IMG/VR virus record: IMGVR_UViG_3300027805_000107 | Location: 1-20,156 of that record | Reading direction: 5' to 3' (one strand) | Length of the DNA stretch: 20,156 nt | Source: a virus | Part shown: piece by piece, positions 1-14,567 of the stretch | Numbering within the stretch: the stretch's first letter is position 1 | Layout: each line of letters opens with the position of its first letter | Translations under genes and position numbers: made by a program | Notes under the pieces: generated by a model | Told to the model about the DNA's origin: nothing | Database searches by the model: none | What the model saw: only the letters and a program-made list of their open reading frames with translations

Positions 1-3000
1 AAGCAAGTAATGCATCTACTTCTGCTTCTAATGCTTCTACGTCTGCAACTGCTGCTAGTAACTCCGCTTCTACAGCAACGACACAGGCTGGTATAGCTAC
101 AACTCAAGCAAGTAACGCATCGACTTCAGCAAGTAATGCATCAACCAGCGCATCTAATGCAGCTACTAGTGCTACTAATGCTGCTGCTTCTTATGATGCA
201 TTTGATGATAGGTATCTTGGAGACAAGGCTTCTGATCCGTCACTTGATAATGATGGCAATGCACTCTTAACAGGTGCCTTATATTTTAATACAACTTCTT
301 CTGTTTTAAAAGTATACACTGGATCAGCATGGACTAATGCTCCACAGGGTCCTGCTGGTGCTGCTGGTGTTGGTATCCCTGTAGGCGGGACTACTGGACA
401 AGTACTATCTAAAGTTAATAGCACAGACTATAATACTCAATGGACTACTATACCTACGGTAGCTGCTGCAACCCCAACCGCCCTTGGAACTGTTTACGGT
501 GAAACTGATTCAGTAACTCCCTTTACCACAACCTTGGGCTATGAAGCGGGTAATGTAACCACAGGAGTAAACAATACTTTTATAGGACACTCTTCGGGTA
601 GATTAACTACCACAGGAACTAATAATACAAGCGTAGGTAAAGATACTTTAAAAGCAAATACGACAGGTAATCATAATAGTGCTTTTGGTTATGCTACATT
701 ACAGGCTAATACTACGGGGATGTATAATCATGCTTTCGGTAACTCGGTATTACGGACTAATACTACGGGTGGAAATAATAATGCTTTTGGTTCAGAGGCA
801 TTAGCATCCAATACTACAGGTGCAGGTAATAGTGCCTTCGGTAATACTTCGCTTTTTTCAAATAGCACAGGCGCATATAATGTTGCAGTTGGTGACAGCG
901 CCCTTCTTTTCAATGGTACGGGAAATAACAGTACGGCTGTGGGTGCTTCGGCTCTTAATTTGACAAATGGTTCAAATAATACTGCTATAGGTCAAAGCGC
1001 AGGAAGTGATTTATTTTCTGGCTCTAACAACATTCTTATTGGTTACAACGCTCAACCATCAGCCAGCCCGATAAGCAACGAAGCCACTTGGGGTAACTCC
1101 AGTATTACAAGAAATCGTTTTTGGGGTGCACTTTTAATGGCTGGTGCTAATGCTGGAACAAGCGGTCAGGTATTAACTTCTGCGGGTGCTGGTGTTTCTC
1201 CCACTTGGACAACTCCTACTGGCGGGGTAACATCATTTAGTGCTGGCACAACTGGATTCACTCCTTCAACTACTACCACTGGTGCAGTTACCCTCGCTGG
1301 TACTTTAGCACTTGCTAACGGTGGTACAGGTCAAACTACTAAAGCAGCAGCATTTAATGCTCTATCACCTATTACAACTACTGGTGACTTAATCATTGGT
1401 AACGGTAGCAACAGCGCAACTCGGTTAGCTATTGGAACGAACGGACAAGTATTAATTTCTAACGGAACAACTGCTTCTTGGGGTTCTGCCCCCGCTGGTG
1501 CTGCTGCTACCTCTACTGCTCTTGGTACTGTATATGGCAAAACTCTATCTGCTTCGCCCAGAACAACCACTATAGGTAATTTTGCTGGGGTAGCTGCAAC
1601 AGGTGCTGACAATTCGTTTTTTGGTTATCAGGCGGGATACACCACCACAACCGGAACTAACAATACAGCAATGGGGAAAGATGCGTTTTACAGTGCTTCT
1701 ACAGTCAACAATGCTGTTGCTATTGGTTTTGAGGCATTAAGAAATCCTACAGATTGTAGCGGAGTAGTTGCAATAGGTTATCAAGCTCTTTTTACAAACG
1801 CCAATGCGTCTGGCTCAGTTGCAATCGGCTCTCAAGCGGGACACAAAAGCCCGGGACTTTTAACCGCAATTGGCTTTCAAGCAGCGTTTAATACAACGGG
1901 ACTTAATAATACTACAATTGGGTATCAAGCATTAACTACTAACACCACTGGAACTAATAATACCGCTGTTGGTCATCAAGCTTTAACTGCCGCTACTGGC
2001 AATCATAATACAGCACTTGGATGGACCACTGGGGATGGTGTAACTACTGGCAGCAATAATACACTAATTGGCAGTCAAAATTCGAAAAGTGGTTTCTTAA
2101 CTACTGGATCGAACAATCTTGTTCTTGGATACAACACATACCCATCTTCAGCTACAGTAAGTAACGAAAACACTTTTGGTAATTTATCAACCACAAGCAA
2201 CCGCTTCTGGGGCGATATGAAAATGGCTGGCACAAACGCTGGCACATCCGGTCAAGTCTTGACTTCTGCTGGACCGGGTGTTGCTCCCACTTGGGCTGCA
2301 GCAACCATCTCTGGAACATTAGCTGCAACTTCAGGTGGTACAGGTCAGTCTACTTATGCTGTTGGTGACTTGTTAGTTGGTGGTACTTCCAACACACTAA
2401 ATAAATTAGCCGATATAGCCACAGGCAATGCTTTAATTTCGGGCGGTGTTGGTGTCGCACCTAGTTACGGCAAGATTGGTCTTACATCCCATGTGTCAGG
2501 CACATTGCCGATTGCCAATGGCGGTACAAACGGCACAGCTACGCCAACCGCTGGTGGGGCAATTTATGGTACAGGCTCAGCTTATGCGGTAACTGCAGCA
2601 GGAACTTCAGGACAAGTATTAACTTCAAATGGTGCTTCTGCCCCCACTTGGTCTACTCCGAGTAGCGTTTCTGCTGCAACTGCTACTGCCCTTGGTACTG
2701 TATACGGTGTAACATCTTCTACCACTGGTGCTAATGTTGCTTATGGTTACAACGCTGGTGTTGGTTCTTCAGCAGGACTTTACAATACTGTTATTGGTAA
2801 CAGAGCAAACCGTACTATGCCGAGTGGCACTAACTCTCAATATACTGCTATTGGCTTTGAAGCATTAAATAATTCTAGTGGTGCAGCAATGGCTGGTCCT
2901 TGTACTGCTATTGGCTATCAGGCTATGGGCGCAATGTCCCAATCTTTTCCCGGTTATGGCACAGCCGTTGGATTTGAAGCATTAAAAAATGGTGCATATG

Positions 3001-3644
3001 CTAGTACTGCTGTAGGGCATCAAGCCCTTGCTTTGGACGCAGGAACTATGAATTGTGCATTTGGTTATCTTGCACAATCAGCAAGCACATCGGGTACTTA
3101 TAATTGTTCTTTCGGAGCTAATTCATTAGTAGCTCTTACTACGGGAGGCAATAATTCTGCTTTTGGTGACCAAGCTGGCTCTAGTATAACCACAGGCACA
3201 AATAATACTGTTATTGGGTCGCAATCACAAGCATCATCAGCAACAGTAAGCAACACAGTTACTTTAGGTAATGGATCAATAACAACCCTGCGTTGCGCTG
3301 TTACTACTATTACCGCCATATCCGATGCTCGTGACAAGAAAGACATTACCCCGCTACAGGCTGGTATTGAGTTCATTAAAAAACTAAACCCGGTAAACTT
3401 TATCTGGAATATGCGTGATGGTGGTAAAGTCGGTGTTGCTGACGCTGGCTTCATTGCTCAAGAACTAAAACAAGCACAGATTGATACAGGCATCACAATC
3501 CCTAATCTAGTCTTTGATGATAACCCGGATAAGCTAGAGGCAGGATACGGTACTTTAATTCCAGTATTAGTAAAAGCAATACAAGAACAACAGACTCAAA
3601 TTGAATCATTAATCACTCGTTTAACTTTATTAGAAGGGAAGTAA
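1..3644 (+). CDS. Tail fibre with YadA-like head repeats and C-terminal S74 self-cleaving chaperone (5' partial)
   Basis: The frame is open from base 3 to the TAA at 3642-3644 (1213 visible codons), so the true start lies upstream of the window. In order it shows a Ser/Asn/Ala/Thr-rich low-complexity stretch (bases 3-190), a short domain typical of phage fibres (DAFDDRYLG... to YTGSAW, about 190-340), a Gly/Pro stretch, then three blocks of short repeats of the TG.NNTA.G type, as in trimeric YadA-like heads. Linkers carry GGTGQ and TSGQVLTS motifs common in fibres. The C-terminus from Ser (base 3321, SDARDKKDI) is a peptidase S74 intramolecular chaperone of about 107 residues. In this family the chaperone trimerises the fibre and is then released by cleavage at the conserved Ser-Asp. 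Role inferred: host recognition. The N-terminal tail-attachment part is not visible. Confidence 0.9.
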   Translation, partial: ASNASTSASNASTSATAASNSASTATTQAGIATTQASNASTSASNASTSASNAATSATNAAASYDAFDDRYLGDKASDPSLDNDGNALLTGALYFNTTSSVLKVYTGSAWTNAPQGPAGAAGVGIPVGGTTGQVLSKVNSTDYNTQWTTIPTVAAATPTALGTVYGETDSVTPFTTTLGYEAGNVTTGVNNTFIGHSSGRLTTTGTNNTSVGKDTLKANTTGNHNSAFGYATLQANTTGMYNHAFGNSVLRTNTTGGNNNAFGSEALASNTTGAGNSAFGNTSLFSNSTGAYNVAVGDSALLFNGTGNNSTAVGASALNLTNGSNNTAIGQSAGSDLFSGSNNILIGYNAQPSASPISNEATWGNSSITRNRFWGALLMAGANAGTSGQVLTSAGAGVSPTWTTPTGGVTSFSAGTTGFTPSTTTTGAVTLAGTLALANGGTGQTTKAAAFNALSPITTTGDLIIGNGSNSATRLAIGTNGQVLISNGTTASWGSAPAGAAATSTALGTVYGKTLSASPRTTTIGNFAGVAATGADNSFFGYQAGYTTTTGTNNTAMGKDAFYSASTVNNAVAIGFEALRNPTDCSGVVAIGYQALFTNANASGSVAIGSQAGHKSPGLLTAIGFQAAFNTTGLNNTTIGYQALTTNTTGTNNTAVGHQALTAATGNHNTALGWTTGDGVTTGSNNTLIGSQNSKSGFLTTGSNNLVLGYNTYPSSATVSNENTFGNLSTTSNRFWGDMKMAGTNAGTSGQVLTSAGPGVAPTWAAATISGTLAATSGGTGQSTYAVGDLLVGGTSNTLNKLADIATGNALISGGVGVAPSYGKIGLTSHVSGTLPIANGGTNGTATPTAGGAIYGTGSAYAVTAAGTSGQVLTSNGASAPTWSTPSSVSAATATALGTVYGVTSSTTGANVAYGYNAGVGSSAGLYNTVIGNRANRTMPSGTNSQYTAIGFEALNNSSGAAMAGPCTAIGYQAMGAMSQSFPGYGTAVGFEALKNGAYASTAVGHQALALDAGTMNCAFGYLAQSASTSGTYNCSFGANSLVALTTGGNNSAFGDQAGSSITTGTNNTVIGSQSQASSATVSNTVTLGNGSITTLRCAVTTITAISDARDKKDITPLQAGIEFIKKLNPVNFIWNMRDGGKVGVADAGFIAQELKQAQIDTGITIPNLVFDDNPDKLEAGYGTLIPVLVKAIQEQQTQIESLITRLTLLEGK
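3..185 (+). repeat. Ser-Asn-Ala-Thr low-complexity repeat in the tail fibre
   Basis: Codons here spell short imperfect repeats around ASNAST and TTQASNAS, built from gca/gct, agt/tct, aat and act codons. Such stretches are common before the variable part of aquatic phage fibres and may act as a flexible or helical shaft. The 5' extent is not visible. Confidence 0.7.
3321..3641 (+). other. S74 chaperone domain of the tail fibre, predicted release point
   Basis: The domain begins with the conserved Ser-Asp pair (codons at 3321 and 3324) followed by ARDKKDI. It continues through LNPVNFIW, GFIAQEL and YGTLIPVLVKAIQE to a Leu/Ile/Gln-rich C-terminal helix. In characterised members this domain is autoproteolytically cut after the Ser once the trimer has folded. 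The predicted cut is between codons 3321 and 3324. Confidence 0.85.
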
Positions 3645-5212: not shown

Positions 5213-8200
5213 ATGGCAGAGAAAACATTCACAGAAAAGCAACGGGAAATTGTAGCTCGTAAAATGGGTTACGAAGGTCCTATGAATATGTTTGATAAGT
5301 ACCTCAAGTCTACTCCTGCTGATGCTCAGAAGTATGGACTTATTACGGAGAAGTTTATGGCTAAGGGTGGTATGGTTAGAAAGTATGCTGTTGGTGGGGA
5401 TGTAGTTCCTACTGCACAAGCTGCTGGTACTACAGAAGTTGATCCTATCACGGGTTTACCTATTCAGCCTCGGGTTGCACAGATATCCCCCGCTATGCAG
5501 TATGCAGGTACAGGTGAATCACTTGCTACCCAACTCGCCCCCACACAGGCAAGCCAAGTCACAGGTGCTACTCCAGTTGCAGCTGCTACAATGGCAGCCC
5601 CTACTACAACTTCAGCAGCTACAATGCAAGCAGCTACTGCTGCTCCAGCTGTCGGTGCTGCACTTCAAGGTGTAGAGGGAGCACAAGGAACAGTAGCACC
5701 TCAAGCACAAGTACAAGCTGCACAGGCAGTACCAACAGCTACCGCTTTAGGTGGATTAACTGCAGCACAAGCACAAGGAGCACAAGTAGGTGCAGTAGCT
5801 CCTATGGCAATTACGCCAGAACAGATAGCACAAGCTGCAACACGGGCAGCTACTCCAGCAACACAGGCTGCTCAAACGGGAGCTATGCTTACAGCTGAAG
5901 CTGCTAAGATGGAGTCCGGTACTCCTCAAGCTGTAGCTGCTACAGACTACCAGTTAAAAGCCCTTGAAGCAGCACAGATGGCACAGACCAAAGTACAAGA
6001 AGCAGCCAAAGCAGGACTAATGCCAGAGGCACAATCTGCTCAGACTGCTGCTACTTTTGCTGCTGAAGCTGCTAGGTTGGGATCCACAACTCCTCAAGCC
6101 ATTGCTGCTGCAGATTACAATCTCAAAGAAATTCAAGCAGCACAGATGGCAGCAACTAAGGTGCAGGATGCAGCTAAGGCAGGGCTAATGCCAGAAGGAC
6201 AGGCTGCTCAGACTACAGCTACGTTTGCTGCTGAGGCTGCCAAGCTGGGATCTGCTACTCCACAAGCTGTTGCTGCTACTGAGTTTAATCTCAAAACAAT
6301 TGATGCAGCACAGATGGAAGCAATTAAAGTACAACAAGCAGCTAAAGCAGGGATCATGCCAGAAGCAATAGCTGCTCAGACCATTAGTAAGTCTGACATT
6401 ATTCCAGCTGCTCGTGCTATTACAGAACAAGAATTAGTAGATGTTGCTAGACAAAACCTGCAGATCAACGATCCAGTTCAAGCTGTAGCTGCTACGATGT
6501 CTGCATTAAATTCTGATGCTAGAGCTACAGCAGAGCAAGGTACCTTTAGTCAAGCCTTAGCTACAGCACAGCAGGGTAGTGTAGATGCTACTGCAACAGT
6601 TCAAGGGCAGTTGGCTAATCTAATGAATCAATTTAATGATGGCACACCTGCGTGGGCTGCTGGGGCTATGCGTAAAGCAAATGCTGCTATGTCTGCTAGG
6701 GGTTTAGGTGGTAGTTCTATTGCTGGTGCAGCTATCGTTCAAGCTACAATGGAAAGTGCAATTCCTATTGCTGCTGCAGATGCCCAAGTGTTTGCTGGTA
6801 TGAACATGGCAAACTTAAACAACAGACAGCAAGTAGCGTTAGCTAATGCTGCTGCATCTCAGAACATAGAGTTAGCTAACTTAAGTGCAAGACAACAGAC
6901 AGCATTGCAAAACAGTGCTAATGCCTTTTCTTTGCAGTCACAGAATCTGTCGAATACCCAAGCTGTTGTACTCGCCAATGCTCAGATTAGAGCTGCTACT
7001 CAACAGAAGAATTTAGATGTGAGTACTCAAGTTGCTTTAACTAATGCAGCTCGATTTGCTGAAGTAAACAACATTAACTTGTCTAATGCACAGCAAGCTA
7101 GACTACAAACTTCTGCTGAGAACTTGCAGATTGATATGGCTAATCTGTCGAACAGACAACAAACAGCACTGTCAAACTTACAAGTTCGTGCTGCTTTAAC
7201 TGGACAAGAGTTAAGCAATGAACAACAGATGGCAATGCTACAAAGCACACAAGACTTTGAAGCAGGAAAGTTCAATGCTAATAATAAACAACAGGCTTTA
7301 ATCACTGACTTTCAAGCTCGTGCTGCACTAGAGGGACAAGTCTTAGGAAATAGGCAGCAGACTGCCTTGTTTAACGTGTCTAATCTTTTACAAGAAAGAC
7401 AGTTGGAGTTAACCACAGAACAACAGACTCGGTTGTTTAATACTACTAACGCTCTGACAATTGAAACACAGAATCTATCTAATAGGCAACAAACCTCGTT
7501 AGCTAACTTACAAATTAGAGCTGCGTTAGTTGGACAAGAGCTTACTAACGAACAACAGATGGCAGTACTGCAAAGTACCCAAGAGTTTGAGGCAGGTCAG
7601 TTTAATGCTAATAGTAAGCAGCAAGCTTTAATTACAGACTTCCAAGCCCGTGCTGCATTAGAAGGTCAAGTCTTGGGTATCAGACAACAGACTGCTCTGT
7701 TTAATGTATCTAATGTTTTACAAGAGAGACAGTTAGAGCTGACTACAGAGCAGCAAACTCGTTTGTTCAATACTACAAATGCCTTGACGATTGAGACCCA
7801 GAATTTATCTAATCGGCAACAGACAGGATTAGCTAATCTACAAGTTCGGGCTGCTATCGTAGGGCAAGAACTTAGTAATGAGCAACAAGCAGCAATGCTT
7901 CAGAGTACGCAAGAATTTGAAAATGCTCAGTTCAATGCTAACAATAAACAGCAAGCATTGATTACTGACTTCCAAGTTCAAGCTGCACTGGAAGGTCAGG
8001 TCTTAGGCATTAAACAACAGACTTCTTTATTCAATGTGTCTAGTGCACTGCAAGAAAGACAACTAGAATTAAATGCAGAACAGCAGACCCGCCTGTTTAA
8101 TACTACTACTGCCCTAACCCTTGAAACACAGAACCTGTCTAACAGGCAGCAAACAGCTTTAGCTAATGCTCAGATCGATGCTGCCCTTATAGGTCAGGAG

Positions 8201-9214
8201 ATGTCTAATCAACAGCAAGTGAATGTAGTTAATGCTGCACGAGTAGCAGAGATTGCTAATGTTAATTTCTCAGCACAACAACAGAAAGCTTTAGAGAATG
8301 CAAGACTGGCTCAGACAACAGACTTAGCTAACTTATCTAACAGTCAAGCGTTAGTTATGGCTAATGCTGCACAGATAGCTAACTTAGAAACTGCCAACCT
8401 TAACAACCGTCAGCAATCTGCTGTAGTTAATGCTCAGTCATTCTTGCAAATGGATATGGCTAACTTAGCTAATGAACAACAGGCAGAGATCTTTAAGGCA
8501 CAGTCCAATGTACAGTCTATCCTGACAGATACTGCTGCTCAGAATGCTGCTAAGCAGTTCAATGCCTCTAGTCAAAATCAATCAGACCAGTTCTTTGCTA
8601 ACCTGACTACCCAAGTAGGGCAGTTTAATACTACTCAAACTAATGCGATGAGTCAGTTTAATACAGACCAAGCTAACACTGTAGCTAAGTTCAATGCCGA
8701 TGTGCAGAATCAACGAGATACATTTAATGCACAGAATAGACTTGTGATTGATCAGTCTAATGCCCAGTGGCGTAGGGAGATTTCTACGGCTAACACTGCA
8801 GCTATCAACAGGGCTAATGAGTTTAATGCTACCAAGGCTATGGAAGTAACTATGGTAGAATATAACAATACGTGGCAGCAGTTCCGTGATGAGATTGAGT
8901 ATTCATGGAAGTCTTCTGAAAGTGCTAAAGAGCGTGTCAATGCAATTGCTAAACAAGAGATTGCGTCTAACGCTACCATCTTAGCTGCGACTATGGCTAA
9001 AGATGCGGAGATTACCATGGCTATTGGCAAGTCTGCTGCAAGCATTATTAGTGGAACTAGCTTACCTGCGGATGCTCTGAAGGCATTGTCTTCAATTGGC
9101 GGTAAGGTATGGGATGAGGGTGCTAAGTGGGTAGGTGGCTTCTTTGATTCAGGAGTGGTAAGACCAGAAGATCTGGGGAGCAGTGGCTATGTGGCACCCA
9201 ATTTTGAGGAATAA
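5213..9214 (+). CDS. 1333-residue repeat-rich structural protein, probable internal virion or tail protein
   Basis: N-terminus (about 1-65) is a small domain ending in AKGGMVRKYAVGGDV, a motif I associate with aquatic phage virion proteins. Residues about 70-235 are Ala/Gln/Thr/Pro-rich. Residues 237-392 carry a 56-residue Ala-rich repeat. Residues 534-1105 are 26 gap-free 22-residue units (consensus NLSNRQQTALxN...). Residues about 1106-1230 have looser QFN/FNA-type helical repeats, and the C-terminus (about 1230-1333) is non-repetitive with a KWVGGFFDSG motif. There is no signal peptide, enzyme motif or TM segment. Length, helix-rich composition and position before probable internal virion genes suggest an ejected or scaffold-like virion protein. 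Function is inferred from context only. Confidence 0.8.
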   Translation: MAEKTFTEKQREIVARKMGYEGPMNMFDKYLKSTPADAQKYGLITEKFMAKGGMVRKYAVGGDVVPTAQAAGTTEVDPITGLPIQPRVAQISPAMQYAGTGESLATQLAPTQASQVTGATPVAAATMAAPTTTSAATMQAATAAPAVGAALQGVEGAQGTVAPQAQVQAAQAVPTATALGGLTAAQAQGAQVGAVAPMAITPEQIAQAATRAATPATQAAQTGAMLTAEAAKMESGTPQAVAATDYQLKALEAAQMAQTKVQEAAKAGLMPEAQSAQTAATFAAEAARLGSTTPQAIAAADYNLKEIQAAQMAATKVQDAAKAGLMPEGQAAQTTATFAAEAAKLGSATPQAVAATEFNLKTIDAAQMEAIKVQQAAKAGIMPEAIAAQTISKSDIIPAARAITEQELVDVARQNLQINDPVQAVAATMSALNSDARATAEQGTFSQALATAQQGSVDATATVQGQLANLMNQFNDGTPAWAAGAMRKANAAMSARGLGGSSIAGAAIVQATMESAIPIAAADAQVFAGMNMANLNNRQQVALANAAASQNIELANLSARQQTALQNSANAFSLQSQNLSNTQAVVLANAQIRAATQQKNLDVSTQVALTNAARFAEVNNINLSNAQQARLQTSAENLQIDMANLSNRQQTALSNLQVRAALTGQELSNEQQMAMLQSTQDFEAGKFNANNKQQALITDFQARAALEGQVLGNRQQTALFNVSNLLQERQLELTTEQQTRLFNTTNALTIETQNLSNRQQTSLANLQIRAALVGQELTNEQQMAVLQSTQEFEAGQFNANSKQQALITDFQARAALEGQVLGIRQQTALFNVSNVLQERQLELTTEQQTRLFNTTNALTIETQNLSNRQQTGLANLQVRAAIVGQELSNEQQAAMLQSTQEFENAQFNANNKQQALITDFQVQAALEGQVLGIKQQTSLFNVSSALQERQLELNAEQQTRLFNTTTALTLETQNLSNRQQTALANAQIDAALIGQEMSNQQQVNVVNAARVAEIANVNFSAQQQKALENARLAQTTDLANLSNSQALVMANAAQIANLETANLNNRQQSAVVNAQSFLQMDMANLANEQQAEIFKAQSNVQSILTDTAAQNAAKQFNASSQNQSDQFFANLTTQVGQFNTTQTNAMSQFNTDQANTVAKFNADVQNQRDTFNAQNRLVIDQSNAQWRREISTANTAAINRANEFNATKAMEVTMVEYNNTWQQFRDEIEYSWKSSESAKERVNAIAKQEIASNATILAATMAKDAEITMAIGKSAASIISGTSLPADALKALSSIGGKVWDEGAKWVGGFFDSGVVRPEDLGSSGYVAPNFEE
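5921..6388 (+). repeat. 168-base (56-residue) tandem repeat, about 2.8 copies
   Basis: Each unit starts TPQA[VI]AA and contains AAQM..TKVQ.AAKAG[LI]MPE and QT.ATFAAEAA. Starts are at 5921, 6089 and 6257, exactly 168 bases apart. The third copy fades after its AAQT (about 6388). A degenerate tail of an earlier copy lies just upstream (5858-5920). All units are in frame with the host gene. Confidence 0.9.
6812..8527 (+). repeat. 66-base (22-residue) repeat array, 26 gap-free units
   Basis: From AAC at 6812 to 8527 the reading frame divides into 26 units of exactly 22 residues. They begin NL, EL, FN, VL, NF or DL and usually carry a QQ pair at unit positions 6-7, for example NLSNRQQ, ELSNEQQ, FNANNKQQ shifted by one, and ELTTEQQ. 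Twenty-two residues equal two hendecads, the signature of straight or slightly right-handed coiled coils. No insertion breaks the register. Confidence 0.92.
7142..8131 (+). repeat. 330-base higher-order tandem repeat, three copies
   Basis: Copies start at 7142, 7472 and 7802, each opening NLSNRQQT and running through five different 22-residue units to TIETQ or TLETQ. Protein identity between copies is high, while synonymous codons differ (for example aatctgtcg, aatctatct, aatttatct). That suggests old duplication or selection on the protein rather than very recent slippage. A partial fourth copy opens at 8132. Confidence 0.92.
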
Positions 9215-9217
9215 ACA

Positions 9218-9445
9218 ATGAGCGCAAAGACATATAAGAAAAAGATTGAAGCTTACGTTAAGCAGAGGGATAGTAGTGCCTCCAAGAGTAGTGGATCAAA
9301 GGGGTTGTTAACACCTAAAAATCCTATGGCTAGGGGTACTTCAGAACAGAAAGATTCTCTAGCCACCATTGGTGAATTTGTTTATGCCCTGCGTCAAAAG
9401 AGACGAGAGTTCCAACAGAATAACAGTAAGAAGGAATCTAAATAA
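9218..9445 (+). CDS. Small basic protein, function unknown
   Basis: 75 residues, rich in Lys and Ser, with a basic N-terminus (SAKTYKKKIEAYVKQRD), a Ser/Gly linker and a C-terminal helix (IGEFVYALRQKRREFQQNN). A GAGGAA ribosome-binding site overlaps the end of the upstream gene. The TAA overlaps the next ATG by one base (TAATG). No family is recognised. It sits among probable virion genes, so it may be a minor virion or assembly protein. Confidence 0.75.
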   Translation: MSAKTYKKKIEAYVKQRDSSASKSSGSKGLLTPKNPMARGTSEQKDSLATIGEFVYALRQKRREFQQNNSKKESK

Positions 9446-9966
9446 TGGCTGCTGATGCTGGATTTGTAAATGCCCCAATCCCCGGAATGTCTTTAACGAC
9501 AGAGCCGGGTAATCGCCCATGGGAAAATCCCCCACAACTTGTAACAGTTGAGGATGCTCTTGAGTACTATGCAAATAAACTAATTGCTGACTCAGATAAT
9601 CACGATGCTATTCTCGAGATGCTAGAGCTACAAGTTCCTGTACAGAATGTAGCTAACATTCTACAGAAGACTGCTGTCATGGAAGGTTTGCACACCATTG
9701 ACGTGGGTGTTCTTGTTGCCCCTGCAGTAGAAGAAATGATTATGGCTGTAGCAGATATGTATGGGGTTCGCTATGCAGAGTCCATAGATCAGATCATGGA
9801 AGGTTTTGTAGCTAATCCTCGTGCAGTGCGTATGGCTATGAAAAACCTAGAGAAATCTATGAATGAACCAGCAGCAGCGGAAATACCTACAGCACTACCA
9901 GAAGAACTTCCTATGGCAGAACCAATGGGTCTGATGGCTAGACCGCAGAAAGGAATGGTAGAATAA
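9445..9966 (+). CDS. Acidic virion-associated protein, function unknown
   Basis: 173 residues. The N-terminus carries IPGMSLTTEPGNRPWENPPQ, a short Pro/Gly/Trp motif that I recall from structural proteins of cyanophages and other aquatic phages. A helical middle part follows (about 30-140, many Ala/Met/Glu), then a Pro/Glu/Met-rich tail (PTALPEELPMAEPMG). There is no TM segment or signal peptide. The start is fixed by the TAATG overlap and an AAGGAA site. It is probably a virion component, by motif memory and location. Confidence 0.75.
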   Translation: MAADAGFVNAPIPGMSLTTEPGNRPWENPPQLVTVEDALEYYANKLIADSDNHDAILEMLELQVPVQNVANILQKTAVMEGLHTIDVGVLVAPAVEEMIMAVADMYGVRYAESIDQIMEGFVANPRAVRMAMKNLEKSMNEPAAAEIPTALPEELPMAEPMGLMARPQKGMVE

Positions 9967-9967
9967 T

Positions 9968-11197
9968 ATGGCATTTGACTTCGGAGCATTAGTTGCTGGC
10001 TTCTCTACAGGAGCAGCAGAGTCTATTGAATCTCGTAATAAACAGATTCGTAATGGGGCTACTAGAGAATTAGATCAGTTAGTTCAGGAAGCTGCAGCTA
10101 AAGAGAAAGGTCTTAAGACTCAGCGAGATACCTTAACTGAACAAGCTAACCAGCTGGCTTCTTTTGCCAATGCACAAGGTGTTGGCTTTACTAAGACACA
10201 GATTCTTGGTTTAATTCAGCAACCAGCTACAGCTAAAACTGTAATTGAAGAGCTAAAGAATAAAAAAGATTTGCGGGATGTTGACTTTGCTAATATATTT
10301 AAAGTCACTAAGCCCGGTACTGAGATGGATCCAGCAGAGTATACCCGCAGAAGTACTAGTATTGCTAAGGATCAAGATGCAGGTAAGGCTACCCCAGTTG
10401 TACGTGGGGCATTTGGCTTTGCATCCCCGGGTGTAGCACAGGCTGAAAAAGAATTTGAAACTGTCTCAGGAAGAACTGCTGCTGAAGTTAGGGGGATTGC
10501 TAGGGGTCGTGTCGATATGGGCGAAGACTTTAAACCTACTCAAGGTACTATTGATCTGTCACAGTTCGGCAATCCAGAGACCATTGCTAATATCCAAGCA
10601 AGACTGCGGGATGCTAAAGCAAACCAAGAAAATCTTGACAGCCCTAAAAACAAAAAGTTATCTGATCAACTGGTAGCTAATGCAGTTATTGAGAATCAGT
10701 TTAAGGACCGAGGAGGAGATGAACGCAAGCCTAGAACTGCATCACAAATTACTACGATTGTAAATAACTCGTTACGTGTCGGATTGCAGGGCTACGAATT
10801 AGGTGACAAGGTGCGGTATGACCTTGAGACAGGTGCACCTATTTATACGGGAGATGTGGCAGGTGCTAATAAGTATGCCGAAGACAAACGAAAAGTTGTT
10901 GAGAATCAGTTTAAAGAGTTGGGTTATATCAAAGACGGCAAGGTTGCAAATGATCGTGATGCTCGAGATGCTTTATTACCCTTTGCTTCAATTGATAAAG
11001 AGGGCACAGTAAACTGGAGGAAGCCTAAGATTGGAGCAGATACAGGCGATACTGCGCCACAGATATCTCAAAAGCCCATTGTCGTACCCACTGCTGCTAT
11101 TGTAAATGGTAAAATTGATCCGAAGAAAATGATACCGGGGCAAACCTACATAGAAAACGGCACAGTAAAAACTTGGAATGGTATGAATTTTCAGTAA
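9968..11197 (+). CDS. 409-residue probable internal virion or tail protein
   Basis: Starts two bases after the previous gene's stop. The N-terminus (MAFDFGALVAGFSTGAAESIESR) is a short apolar helix, followed by a Glu/Lys/Gln-rich helix (about 25-70). The centre (about 100-200) contains PGTEMDPAEYTRRS and a Gly/Ala-rich FGFASPGVAQAE segment. The C-terminal part ends in a small beta-like module (MIPGQTYIENGTVKTWNG). I do not recognise the family. Size and position between the giant repeat protein and the 1114-residue protein resemble the gp14-gp15-gp16 internal protein set of T7-like phages, but no sequence match is claimed. Confidence 0.75.
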   Translation: MAFDFGALVAGFSTGAAESIESRNKQIRNGATRELDQLVQEAAAKEKGLKTQRDTLTEQANQLASFANAQGVGFTKTQILGLIQQPATAKTVIEELKNKKDLRDVDFANIFKVTKPGTEMDPAEYTRRSTSIAKDQDAGKATPVVRGAFGFASPGVAQAEKEFETVSGRTAAEVRGIARGRVDMGEDFKPTQGTIDLSQFGNPETIANIQARLRDAKANQENLDSPKNKKLSDQLVANAVIENQFKDRGGDERKPRTASQITTIVNNSLRVGLQGYELGDKVRYDLETGAPIYTGDVAGANKYAEDKRKVVENQFKELGYIKDGKVANDRDARDALLPFASIDKEGTVNWRKPKIGADTGDTAPQISQKPIVVPTAAIVNGKIDPKKMIPGQTYIENGTVKTWNGMNFQ

Positions 11198-11222: not shown

Positions 11223-14200
11223 ATGGCTAGTGTGTTTGATTTGCCAGTAGCGGGGGTATCTGTTCAAGGTGCCCCTCTTGATATTGAACCTAATGTAACG
11301 GAAGAACAGAAGGCTGCTGCTGCAGCTGTATCTTCTTCTGTGTTTGATATGCCTGTAGCAGATGAAGAGCAACCCAAGTCTGTGTTTGATCTACCCGTAG
11401 TAAAAGCAGATGATGTCCCGGCTGCTTTTAAATTCCAACAAGATCCTGAAGTACAGAGGATTGCAGGTACACCAGAAGAGCGTAAGCAAGTTGGTATTGT
11501 TGGTAACGTAGAAGCTAAAGAGATTCCATTTACGGATCTATATACCCAGCCGGATAATCTTAAAGTTATTCGGGACTACGCTGAAGCTAGGTTTGGTAAG
11601 GCGGGTAAACAAAAAGAAAAAGAGTCAGACGAAGATTATGCCAAACGCTGGATGACTTCCATGCGTCAGGTAGAGTGGAACACTTCTCTCAATGCCATTC
11701 CAGAATTAAACTGGCTAAGTAATGCTAAGCAAGAAGATGTAGTTAAAGCTGCTAGGGCGCACAACCTATTTAATTCTGTACCATCATTTTATTCAGAGGG
11801 TGGACAGCCGGGCATTAGACCCGTAGCTGAAGGACTACTCTCCGCTGTAACAGACCCTGCTAATCTAATAGGCTTTGGTGCAGGTGCCATAGTCCGTCAT
11901 AAGATTGCTCGTGGTGCTATTCAGAATGTACTTAGTACTAAGCTAAAAGCATTTGGTGCGGTAGCTGGATTAGAGGCGGGTCTAGGTGTTGGGCAAAGTG
12001 CCATTGATCAGCAAGTAGCTAGAGAGGTGGGCACTCAACGAGATCAAATAGATAAACTTCAGTTTGGTGTTAGTGCTGCAATTGGAGTCTTGGCTGGTGG
12101 TGCTGAAGTAGCAAGTACCATGGGCAGAAAAATACAGACTTCTAAATCTCAGTTTGAACAAATGATTGCAGGTAAAAAAACACCTGTTAAAGAAGATGAA
12201 CAACTTACTAGACTAAAAGAATTGTTTAGTAAGAATCAAGAAGAGTTAGAAAAACAATCCGATATCTTTGAAGGTCGGAAAGTATTAGATGCTCTGTCTC
12301 CCCCGACTGAACTAACTGAAGCGACTGTGCGTGGTGATGTACATAAAAAAGCAATGGAAGTTGCTATGTATGTTATGTATCTTGCTCCAGAATTTAGACC
12401 TAAGGAAGGGCAGCAGATTAGCCGGGCAGTCAATGACATTGTTGCTAACTTAGATGACTTAGATAATACAGTTTTTGAGAATGCTTTATCGAGAGCTAAC
12501 ATTACTGCAGTAGACTTTGCTAATGCAATTCAAACAACCACTAGTGAAGCGGGTAAAACTTTAAATGCCTACTCACAATTAAGTAAAGTACTTAAGAAAC
12601 TAGGCTCAATAGATCCGGCAGCACAGAAAGAATTAGATAAGATCTTAGCTGCGGATGAAGACTTAGTAACTCCAATCGGCAGCTTTATGAATGGAGTAAA
12701 GAGACTAGAGCGAGAGTCTAAAGCGTTAGTCGTATCCGGCATAGGAACTACAGCACGTAACGTATTAGGCACGGGTGTAGGATTAACTTTTGACGCAGGT
12801 GCAAGGTTAATTGAAAACAGTATCTATGCAGGTGGTAGGGCTATGAAGGCTTTAGCTAGTGGTGATGTATCTGCAGAAGCTACGGGTCGTGGACTTGTTA
12901 ATGTTGTTCGGGATAGCTTTGCTACGCTAGGATACTTAAGTGATTCAGGTTTAACTGCAGAGACTGTCGATGCTTTACTTAAGCGTAATCCAACTTTACA
13001 ACGTCAGATTTTTACAGCCTTACAGGAAACAGGTACGGAAGATCTGTCTAGAATATCTAAAGTAGCAAACACTTTAAACGTAGCACAAGACGTATTCTTT
13101 AGACGAGCTATCTTTGCTTCTAGCGTAGATCGTCAGCTAAAACGTATTGGCTTAAACATGGATGATGTATTAGCTAACGATACTATAATCCCCACAGACA
13201 TCCTTAAGACAGCCACAGACGAGACTTTAAAAGCTACCTTCTCCTATGTACCAAAGACAAAGAAAGCAACCCAGACGGGGCTTGAGGCAGGGGCAGAAAG
13301 CTTTGCTAGTGACTTTGTACGAATGTTTGAAAGGACGGGCGGTTCTTTGCTTGTAACTTTCCCTCGCTTTATGACTAATGCTATGGCATTCCAATACAGG
13401 TATAGTCCCCTAGGTGCTACATCGGGTGCCTCCGAGATGGCACAAGGTGCTATGAAGATGGTTAAGGGTGACGAAGCAGGTCAAGCTTTACTAGAGAAGG
13501 GAATGACTAAGTTCTCTAGGGGTGCTGTTGGTACAGCAGCTATCTATGCGGCATATAAGTATCGTATGGAGAATCAAGATAGCGAATGGTACAACTATAA
13601 AGGTGACGATGGCAGTACAGTCGATCTTCGTGGTGTATTTCCTATTGGTCCATACCTAGCAGTCGGTGACTTTATTGCTAAACAAAAGTTAGGTAAGCTG
13701 GAAGATGCAAAGTTAACCGAAGTAGCTTTAGCTATTACTGGAATGAAACTGCCAGCAGGATCACAACTTGCTTTGATTGATGAATTACCCGGTGTGTTGG
13801 AGGGCGTTGCTGGTAAGGATACTGAAAAGGTAGGCAAAGCTATAGGCAGAATACTAGGTGATTTTGCTGGTCGATTTACTACCCCCGGTAAGGCAGCGTT
13901 TGAATATTTAGATTTGTTTGATAAAGAAGGACAGATTGCAAGAGACCCCAACGTGATAGACGGGGGACAGGGCTTCTTAGGTACCATACAGGAAGCTGCT
14001 GCTCAACGGGTAATGGCTAAGTTGCCAGAGTTCAAGAAAGATTTGCCAGAGTTTCAGCCTTACTTTTCAAATCAGGCTCCCGTACGAGCAGGTGAGTTCT
14101 TTAACAGCTTAACGGGTATCAGAAAAGTGCCCGAGAAAGATCTTATTGAAAGAGAGTTTGTTCAACTGAAGATAGATCCCTACGCTGTTTTTGGTAGCAC

Positions 14201-14567
14201 GGGAGATAAAACGTATGATCGTGCTTTTATTCGAAATGCGATACCTCTAGTAGACAGTAGGATAACATCTCTGATTAACAGTGATCGATATCAAGCAATG
14301 ACTACGGATCAAAAACGTCTCACCTTTGTAAAAAACTTTACTGGCGAAAGAGGAGTTCTAAATATTGCTAGACAGATGACTCAAGCTCAAATGTCTTCCA
14401 CAGATCGGGATCGTGTAAATCGTATGAAGTTCAACAAACTACCCGCTGTTGCACGTAGGGCTATCAATGAACTGTACGCACAAGAGAATGATGGAGTTAC
14501 ACTAGACGCTGCAAAAGACTACAAAGAAGTATACAAGTACGAAGCTTTGCTTAAGCAGTTCCAATAA
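11223..14567 (+). CDS. 1114-residue large internal virion protein-like
   Basis: Preceded by an AAGGA site. The N-terminus carries three copies of SVFD[LM]PV (residues 3-9, 39-45, 53-59) in an otherwise disordered Ala/Glu/Pro stretch. Then come a charged helical region and a DPANLIGFGAGAIV segment (about 212-225). Two Gly/Ala-rich apolar segments follow at about 245-265 and 283-302, a layout I associate with large ejected proteins of podoviruses. The remaining about 800 residues are helical, with a Gly/Ala-rich part around 760-780. No lytic transglycosylase motif is evident. As the last and largest late gene it is a good candidate for a gp16-like ejection channel protein; this is inferred from position and composition. 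Confidence 0.75.
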   Translation: MASVFDLPVAGVSVQGAPLDIEPNVTEEQKAAAAAVSSSVFDMPVADEEQPKSVFDLPVVKADDVPAAFKFQQDPEVQRIAGTPEERKQVGIVGNVEAKEIPFTDLYTQPDNLKVIRDYAEARFGKAGKQKEKESDEDYAKRWMTSMRQVEWNTSLNAIPELNWLSNAKQEDVVKAARAHNLFNSVPSFYSEGGQPGIRPVAEGLLSAVTDPANLIGFGAGAIVRHKIARGAIQNVLSTKLKAFGAVAGLEAGLGVGQSAIDQQVAREVGTQRDQIDKLQFGVSAAIGVLAGGAEVASTMGRKIQTSKSQFEQMIAGKKTPVKEDEQLTRLKELFSKNQEELEKQSDIFEGRKVLDALSPPTELTEATVRGDVHKKAMEVAMYVMYLAPEFRPKEGQQISRAVNDIVANLDDLDNTVFENALSRANITAVDFANAIQTTTSEAGKTLNAYSQLSKVLKKLGSIDPAAQKELDKILAADEDLVTPIGSFMNGVKRLERESKALVVSGIGTTARNVLGTGVGLTFDAGARLIENSIYAGGRAMKALASGDVSAEATGRGLVNVVRDSFATLGYLSDSGLTAETVDALLKRNPTLQRQIFTALQETGTEDLSRISKVANTLNVAQDVFFRRAIFASSVDRQLKRIGLNMDDVLANDTIIPTDILKTATDETLKATFSYVPKTKKATQTGLEAGAESFASDFVRMFERTGGSLLVTFPRFMTNAMAFQYRYSPLGATSGASEMAQGAMKMVKGDEAGQALLEKGMTKFSRGAVGTAAIYAAYKYRMENQDSEWYNYKGDDGSTVDLRGVFPIGPYLAVGDFIAKQKLGKLEDAKLTEVALAITGMKLPAGSQLALIDELPGVLEGVAGKDTEKVGKAIGRILGDFAGRFTTPGKAAFEYLDLFDKEGQIARDPNVIDGGQGFLGTIQEAAAQRVMAKLPEFKKDLPEFQPYFSNQAPVRAGEFFNSLTGIRKVPEKDLIEREFVQLKIDPYAVFGSTGDKTYDRAFIRNAIPLVDSRITSLINSDRYQAMTTDQKRLTFVKNFTGERGVLNIARQMTQAQMSSTDRDRVNRMKFNKLPAVARRAINELYAQENDGVTLDAAKDYKEVYKYEALLKQFQ

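Follow-up and report, generated by a model that had tools for sequence, protein, structure and literature searches.

An eleven-residue length rule in the repeat array of a protein family from HMO-2011-type phages, and its possible link to DNA ejection

What kind of protein is encoded by 26 uninterrupted copies of a 22-residue unit, and what could it do for a short-tailed phage? The question is raised by the IMG/VR virus record IMGVR_UViG_3300027805_000107, whose 20,156 bases (hereafter the window) contain a complete gene with such an array. Judged from its genes, which match a 56.7-kb virus contig (L001) throughout and include a ribonucleotide reductase 62% identical to that of HMO-2011, the window virus is an HMO-2011-type podovirus and belongs to a widespread marine group of phages (PMC9038755). 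We find that, across a family of homologues, array length varies by multiples of 11 residues only, and we discuss the protein as a possible structural part of the machinery for DNA ejection. The gene and its parts are:

5213–9214, plus strand: complete gene of the array protein (P0001, 1333 residues), homologous to HMO-2011 phage1322_25, CRP-1 gp35, CHOED_13 and others
5213–5404, plus strand: N-terminal module (residues 1–64), common to the same-family proteins of ctYwJ313, CRP-1 and HMO-2011, and 93–95% identical in the homologues L001, L002 and L008
5855–6381, plus strand: Ala/Thr/Gln-rich tandem repeat of 56 residues (168 nt), 3.1 copies, upstream of the mid domain, located by Tandem Repeats Finder (TRF), lag-56 identity 0.34
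6578–6781, plus strand: conserved helical 'mid' domain (TVQGQL...PAWAAG...ARGLG.SS...PIA), the left landmark of the array, identified by alignment, predicted helices and couplings of tertiary range
6812–8527, plus strand: 26 in-frame units of 22 residues (N-L-[STND]-N-x-Q-Q-x-x-L-x-N-A...), read from the translation, with about 29% Asn plus Gln and no proline
7142–8131, plus strand: super-repeat of 110 residues (5 units) in three copies, supported by TRF and by pS and pN (the proportions of synonymous and non-synonymous differences) between the copies
8528–8992, plus strand: conserved C-terminal helical region (C-domain) with an 11-residue FN.. period and the right landmark NAAKQFNAS, identified by alignment and a long helix in an AlphaFold2 (AF2) model

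The 26 units follow one another without insertion or deletion (residues 534–1105, translated in the frame of the open reading frame (ORF) 5213–9214), as the initial annotation had stated. Its description of the unit also holds: glutamine occupies position 6 in 25 of the 26 units and position 7 in 24, position 2 is apolar throughout (21 Leu, 3 Ala, 1 Met, 1 Phe), and position 10 is Leu, Ile, Met or Val in every unit. Self-identity of the array is 0.27–0.32 at lags of 22, 44, 66 and 88 residues and 0.58 at a lag of 110, compared with about 0.13–0.17 at the best other lags, and TRF extends the 330-nt (110-residue) super-repeat over 7142–8166. A degenerate 27th unit directly follows the 26, and an 11-residue period (lag-11 identity 0.225) runs into the C-terminal region, where indels among relatives are likewise multiples of 11. 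The periodic pattern is far beyond chance, since 306 homologous arrays keep the same 11-residue register. The 56-residue repeat at 5855–6381 is unrelated to the 22-residue array and finds its best matches in the long-array lineages L131, L134, L122 and L135.

Array length can be expressed as the distance from the PIA motif of the mid domain to the NAAKQFNAS motif of the C-domain. This distance equals 11n+1 residues without exception in the first approximately 30 proteins, then in 158 of 158 and finally in 306 of 306 distinct arrays; nine apparent exceptions (distance 147) arose from a pattern matching VVA 8 residues past PIA, the true distance being 155. Homologues contain 2, 3, 4, 5, 6.5, 7, 10, 12, 17, 22 or 27 units, of which 7 is by far the commonest number, and the long classes of 12, 17, 22 and 27 units equal 7 plus a multiple of 5. 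Spacings in the C-domain obey the same step (72, 61, 83 and 94, all 72+11k), and the hendecad register proposed from the window alone is thereby supported across the family. Proline does not occur once in 47,471 array residues, whereas it makes up 3.5% of the whole ORFs. Tandem duplication alone would produce unit steps, yet it does not explain the absence of all other indels between divergent proteins: family C-domains are as little as about 25–30% identical, yet no off-register indel is found.

How did arrays of such different length arise? A tree computed from the columns outside the array requires at least 28 changes of unit number among its 81 sequences, with several changes each for 12, 17 and 22 units. 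The window falls among 7-unit sequences on this tree, and its C-domain is 94–95% identical to those of its closest relatives, which carry 7 units compared with 27 in the window. Residues 1–192 are 77% identical to L001; from there to approximately residue 1017 the two proteins are dissimilar, and DNA similarity starts again at unit 23 (nt 8273), with 85% identity over 8273–10612 and 89–93% in the C-domain. Window units 1–20 and the mid domain resemble long-array lineages instead. The exchanged part is delimited as follows:

5770–8272, plus strand: probable recombination cassette, unlike the 7-unit nearest relative L001, flanked on both sides by BLASTN segments of 78–85% nucleotide identity

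In the simplest reading of these sequences, recombination probably swapped in a long-array cassette in register. Frequent changes of copy number on the tree would also be expected from a selectively idle slippage array that has no structural meaning. However, pS between the three 110-residue copies is 0.79–0.84 and thus saturated, whereas pN is only 0.06–0.10, which indicates that the copies are old and that the protein is under purifying selection. Since the 11-residue register is universal and proline is absent as well, we regard an idle array as highly improbable. The codon divergence among the super-repeat copies (7142–8131) may also guard the array against loss by recombination. Among our results, the length rule, the lack of proline, the signs of selection and array recombination are the strong ones.

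Does the array form one long helix, or one helix per unit? This very long protein is almost certainly helical. As a monomer the array is predicted as helix only by AF2 in both proteins that were modelled, but the two folds disagree. For a 7-unit homologue (84 sequences) the mean predicted local distance difference test score (pLDDT) was 67, with a 129-residue C-domain helix and an array of low confidence; this model contains long helices, not one helix per unit, and is mixed on continuity at the unit boundaries. The window model, built for 839 residues from 23 sequences, shows a separate helix of about 16 residues in each 22-residue unit, with array pLDDT mostly 75–92. Further observations speak against continuity. 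Position 3 is Ser, Thr, Asp, Asn or Gly in 97% of 958 distinct units, as is typical of a helix N-cap, and glycine is concentrated at position 21. Gln6 sits inside the apolar stripe. At 98 degrees the window shows little hydrophobic power (1.48, whereas the 99% value of shuffled sequences is 1.83), and harmonic 6 holds only 8.5% of the Kyte–Doolittle (KD) power. In a scan from 85 to 125 degrees, the median best angle nevertheless lies at 97.75–98.25 degrees in the 7-, 12-, 17- and 22-unit classes. The classical amphipathic pattern is weak.

The per-unit breaks of the window model, with an array pLDDT of 80–92, together with the N-cap-type residues at position 3 and the glycines at position 21, would fit a helical solenoid. 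Each unit would then consist of a helix of about 16 residues and a linker of about 6, stacked as a rigid superhelix with the 110-residue (five-helix) super-repeat as its building block; the main lineages do grow in 5-unit steps, and designed helical repeat proteins were matched weakly by Foldseek. However, no linker in any of the 306 arrays contains an indel of another size or a proline, half-unit arrays (6.5 units) exist, and one helix per unit is not seen in the 7-unit homologue, for which the alignment was deeper. A mean-field coupling analysis of 248 seven-unit sequences (effective number of sequences 64) showed i,i+3/4 couplings persisting across unit boundaries (0.39 compared with 0.30 inside units; reference 0.05; p=0.001, which is only indicative because non-independent pairs are treated as independent). 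Couplings at separations of 14–30, the inter-helix range, are nearly absent in the array of this 7-unit family (0.6% compared with 2.7% in the mid domain), whereas the AF2 model of the window does bring the helices of neighboring units into contact. For near-perfect repeats, moreover, AF2 is reported to return solenoids that are confident but unrealistic, as shown for beta-solenoids (PMC11795689). Thus, a helical solenoid is a possible but doubtful reading. Continuity is favored by the lack of proline and of off-register indels, by the boundary-crossing couplings and by the missing signals in the helix–helix range, and the helix of the array is probably unbroken, or nearly so, in hendecad register. 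For the single helix of about 85 nm that had been suggested, this leaves the all-helical models and the leaning of the couplings on one side and the window model, position 3 and the weak 98-degree peak on the other.

Searches with the predicted folds gave little to compare. Neither model matched a PDB entry at E≤0.001, and the VIA-align Z was at most 6.7 and 5.5 for the two models, a range that its notes call common for helical models. At the same E-value limit, BFVD yielded three viral proteins, none with an assigned function; one has 460 residues, like CHOED_13. A 2.2-residue harmonic prompted us to consider a beta-solenoid, a fold that we rejected on the grounds that AF2 returned helices in both cases. 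We also discarded, as numerology, explanations of the 110-residue step that invoke the tight packing of small residues or the pitch of a supercoil. Given that AF2 produced two folds for two members, the family could serve as a demanding test set for structure predictors.

What might a rod of this kind do? The initial annotation had considered a tape-measure-like, internal core or ejected conduit role. The genes that follow the array gene bear on this choice:

9218–9445, plus strand: ORF of 75 residues, 77% identical in L001
9445–9966, plus strand: conserved protein of 173 residues, recognized by alignment, of the size of gp14-like ejection proteins
9968–11197, plus strand: protein of 409 residues (285–720 in relatives), comparable in position and size to a gp15-like ejection protein
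11223–14567, plus strand: protein of 1114 residues, comparable in position and size to a gp16-like ejection protein

In annotated relatives, the array gene is likewise followed on its 3' side by at least one variable small ORF and then by proteins of about 150–190 and 285–720 residues; a third one of about 800–1250 residues comes next where the DNA reaches far enough, and then usually genes on the opposite strand. This order is conserved from HMO-2011 to CHOED, phiM6 and Slicky01. Ejection clusters elsewhere encode gp14/15/16-like proteins of about 200, 430–980 and 600–1320 residues (PMC8954989), and the block downstream of the array gene consists of ordered, adjacent genes within the sizes of such sets (about 170–240, 400–1000 and 600–1300 residues). 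The three downstream genes of the window thus resemble T7 gp14/15/16 and P22 gp7/20/16 in size series and adjacency (PMC8954989), whereas the array protein would add a fourth protein to such a set. As its gene lies beside probable DNA-injection genes, the array protein may belong to that machinery as a part of adjustable length.

We therefore favor, with a probability of roughly 0.45, the reading that the array gene encodes a structural protein of the DNA-ejection machinery, a hendecad helical rod working somewhat like the DNA pilot protein H of phiX174. H forms a decameric tube (PDB 4JPP) that contains hendecads, with Asn, Gln and Arg lining its lumen (PMC7354561). It is a partial precedent for a design of which the initial annotation knew no described phage example. 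Both are alpha-helical phage proteins with hendecads and a high content of Asn and Gln, 29.5% in the array and 25.6% in the H tube, compared with 7–17% in the ejection proteins of T7 and P22. However, the tube of H comprises 121 residues with three hendecads followed by heptads, and no sequence relationship was detectable; the likeness to H therefore concerns a possible way of working and not membership in the same family.

In the ejection machinery, the array and the C-domain that follows it would form long, nearly straight alpha-helices with three turns per 11 residues, and indels other than multiples of 11 would be lost because they break this register. The apolar stripes (positions 2/9–10/13/17 and 8/19) would hold several chains side by side in a rod or tube whose faces are rich in Asn and Gln. 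The protein would be packed in or on the virion and expelled together with neighboring proteins, and might then act as a conduit or guide for the DNA across the envelope, like the tube of H. In-register recombination would alter the length of the rod, and new arrays would always keep the register. The most specific form of this proposal is a counterpart of the H tube in double-stranded DNA phages: exceptionally long hendecad helices, rich in Asn and Gln, would make up an ejection conduit or guide in a podovirus, and its modular length would be swapped between viruses by in-register recombination in steps of 11, 22 and mostly 110 residues. In this form the proposal is tentative and on the whole unlikely.

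Several results weigh against an ejection rod. While we infer a virion location for the array protein, our literature search found no virion proteomics that places a homologue in virions. Profile comparison revealed no similarity to T7 gp15 and gp16 or to P22 gp20 and gp16, with single sequences as targets, nor to phiX174 H (hhalign probability 0.4%). Size is a further consideration. From the helix rise alone (0.15 nm per residue), the window array would measure 86 nm, and the distance from PIA to WRR would be about 100 nm in the window form and about 34 nm in the 7-unit form. The related phage MQM1 has a capsid of 70.6 nm and a tail of 9.2 nm (PMC10410586). If the window virus, known from sequence alone, has a head of this 70-nm kind, a straight rod of window length would not fit inside and would have to bend, fold, partly unfold or lie outside.

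These dimensions also bear on the idea that the array protein, as a scaffold, internal core or tape-measure-like component, determines a dimension of the virion by its own length. A long helical repeat protein that adjoins putative internal proteins would suit such a role. However, array length differs nearly four-fold between the window and its closest relatives, and the tail of the relative MQM1 is only 9 nm long (PMC10410586), which makes this alternative improbable. Of the roles initially considered, the neighborhood of a putative ejection-protein cluster is thus in keeping with an ejected conduit, whereas the tape measure has become unlikely.

Variable length would be easier to accept outside the capsid, where the protein could be a trimeric coiled-coil fiber, stalk or tail needle in the manner of trimeric autotransporter stalks and phage fibers rather than an ejected conduit. 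The homologues of CRP-3, CRP-738 and CRP-212 carry a Peptidase_S74-like chaperone at their C-terminus, a feature typical of trimeric fibers; this suggests trimers in those three lineages and counts against a lumen and hence against an ejection tube. The S74 tail was recognized by motif in all three, CRP-3 (L026), CRP-738 (L027) and CRP-212 (L029), has a Pfam match in CRP-3, and follows a Gly-rich apolar stretch. The array gene lies downstream of a tail-fiber-like gene and lysis genes. Undecad trimeric coiled coils with polar layers do exist, as in NadA3 (PMC6191539), which shares the 11-residue register but has two undecads among heptads instead of dozens in a row. On the other hand, the S74 motif occurs in only 3 of the 306 proteins and, unlike in S74-tailed phage fibers, is missing from the window protein. 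In the phages examined, the array gene accompanies the block of about 170, 400 and 1100 residues and not fiber genes. Overall, we consider an external fiber unlikely. The upstream ORF of the window (3–3644) resembles a repeat-rich tail fiber, with an end that is S74-chaperone-like by eye only.

Near relatives in this family differ almost fourfold in array length, always by whole 11-residue steps, and thus provide a natural length series. If the protein is an ejection conduit, this series would make it possible to test directly how the crossing of the envelope by short-tailed phages is related to the length of the conduit.

The family itself is easily traced among phages. A tblastn search with the array protein returned 27 phage records, mainly HMO-2011-type roseophages and pelagiphages, together with CHOED, MQM1, Slicky01 and rhizobial phages. 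HMO-2011 phage1322_25, CRP-1 gp35, CHOED_13, MQM1_018 and phiM6_25 share the mid domain, the C-domain, the register and the gene order with the window protein; their arrays have 3–12 units, mostly 7, compared with 27 in the window, and their records carry no assigned function. The window protein had no PHROG match and no Pfam match above the cut-off, and its relatives gave nothing meaningful in either database except the S74 tail of CRP-3; the family is without a Pfam or PHROG model. Sequence searches of solved structures with the whole protein, the mid-domain profile and the C-domain profile gave no convincing match.

Some records of homologues deserve a comment. In MW202701 the array homologue (L014, 12001–14592) is labelled 'huntingtin', an evident false annotation that perhaps stems from Pro/Ala/Gln-rich sequence. 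Two array genes lie on contigs filed as metagenome-assembled genomes of a Euryarchaeota (L190) and a Blastopirellula (L191), which are probably host-binned or misbinned phage contigs. In pelagiphage HTVC033P (L025, 430–2653), two 2OG-Fe(II) oxygenase genes and a putative ferrochelatase gene are found immediately upstream of the array gene.

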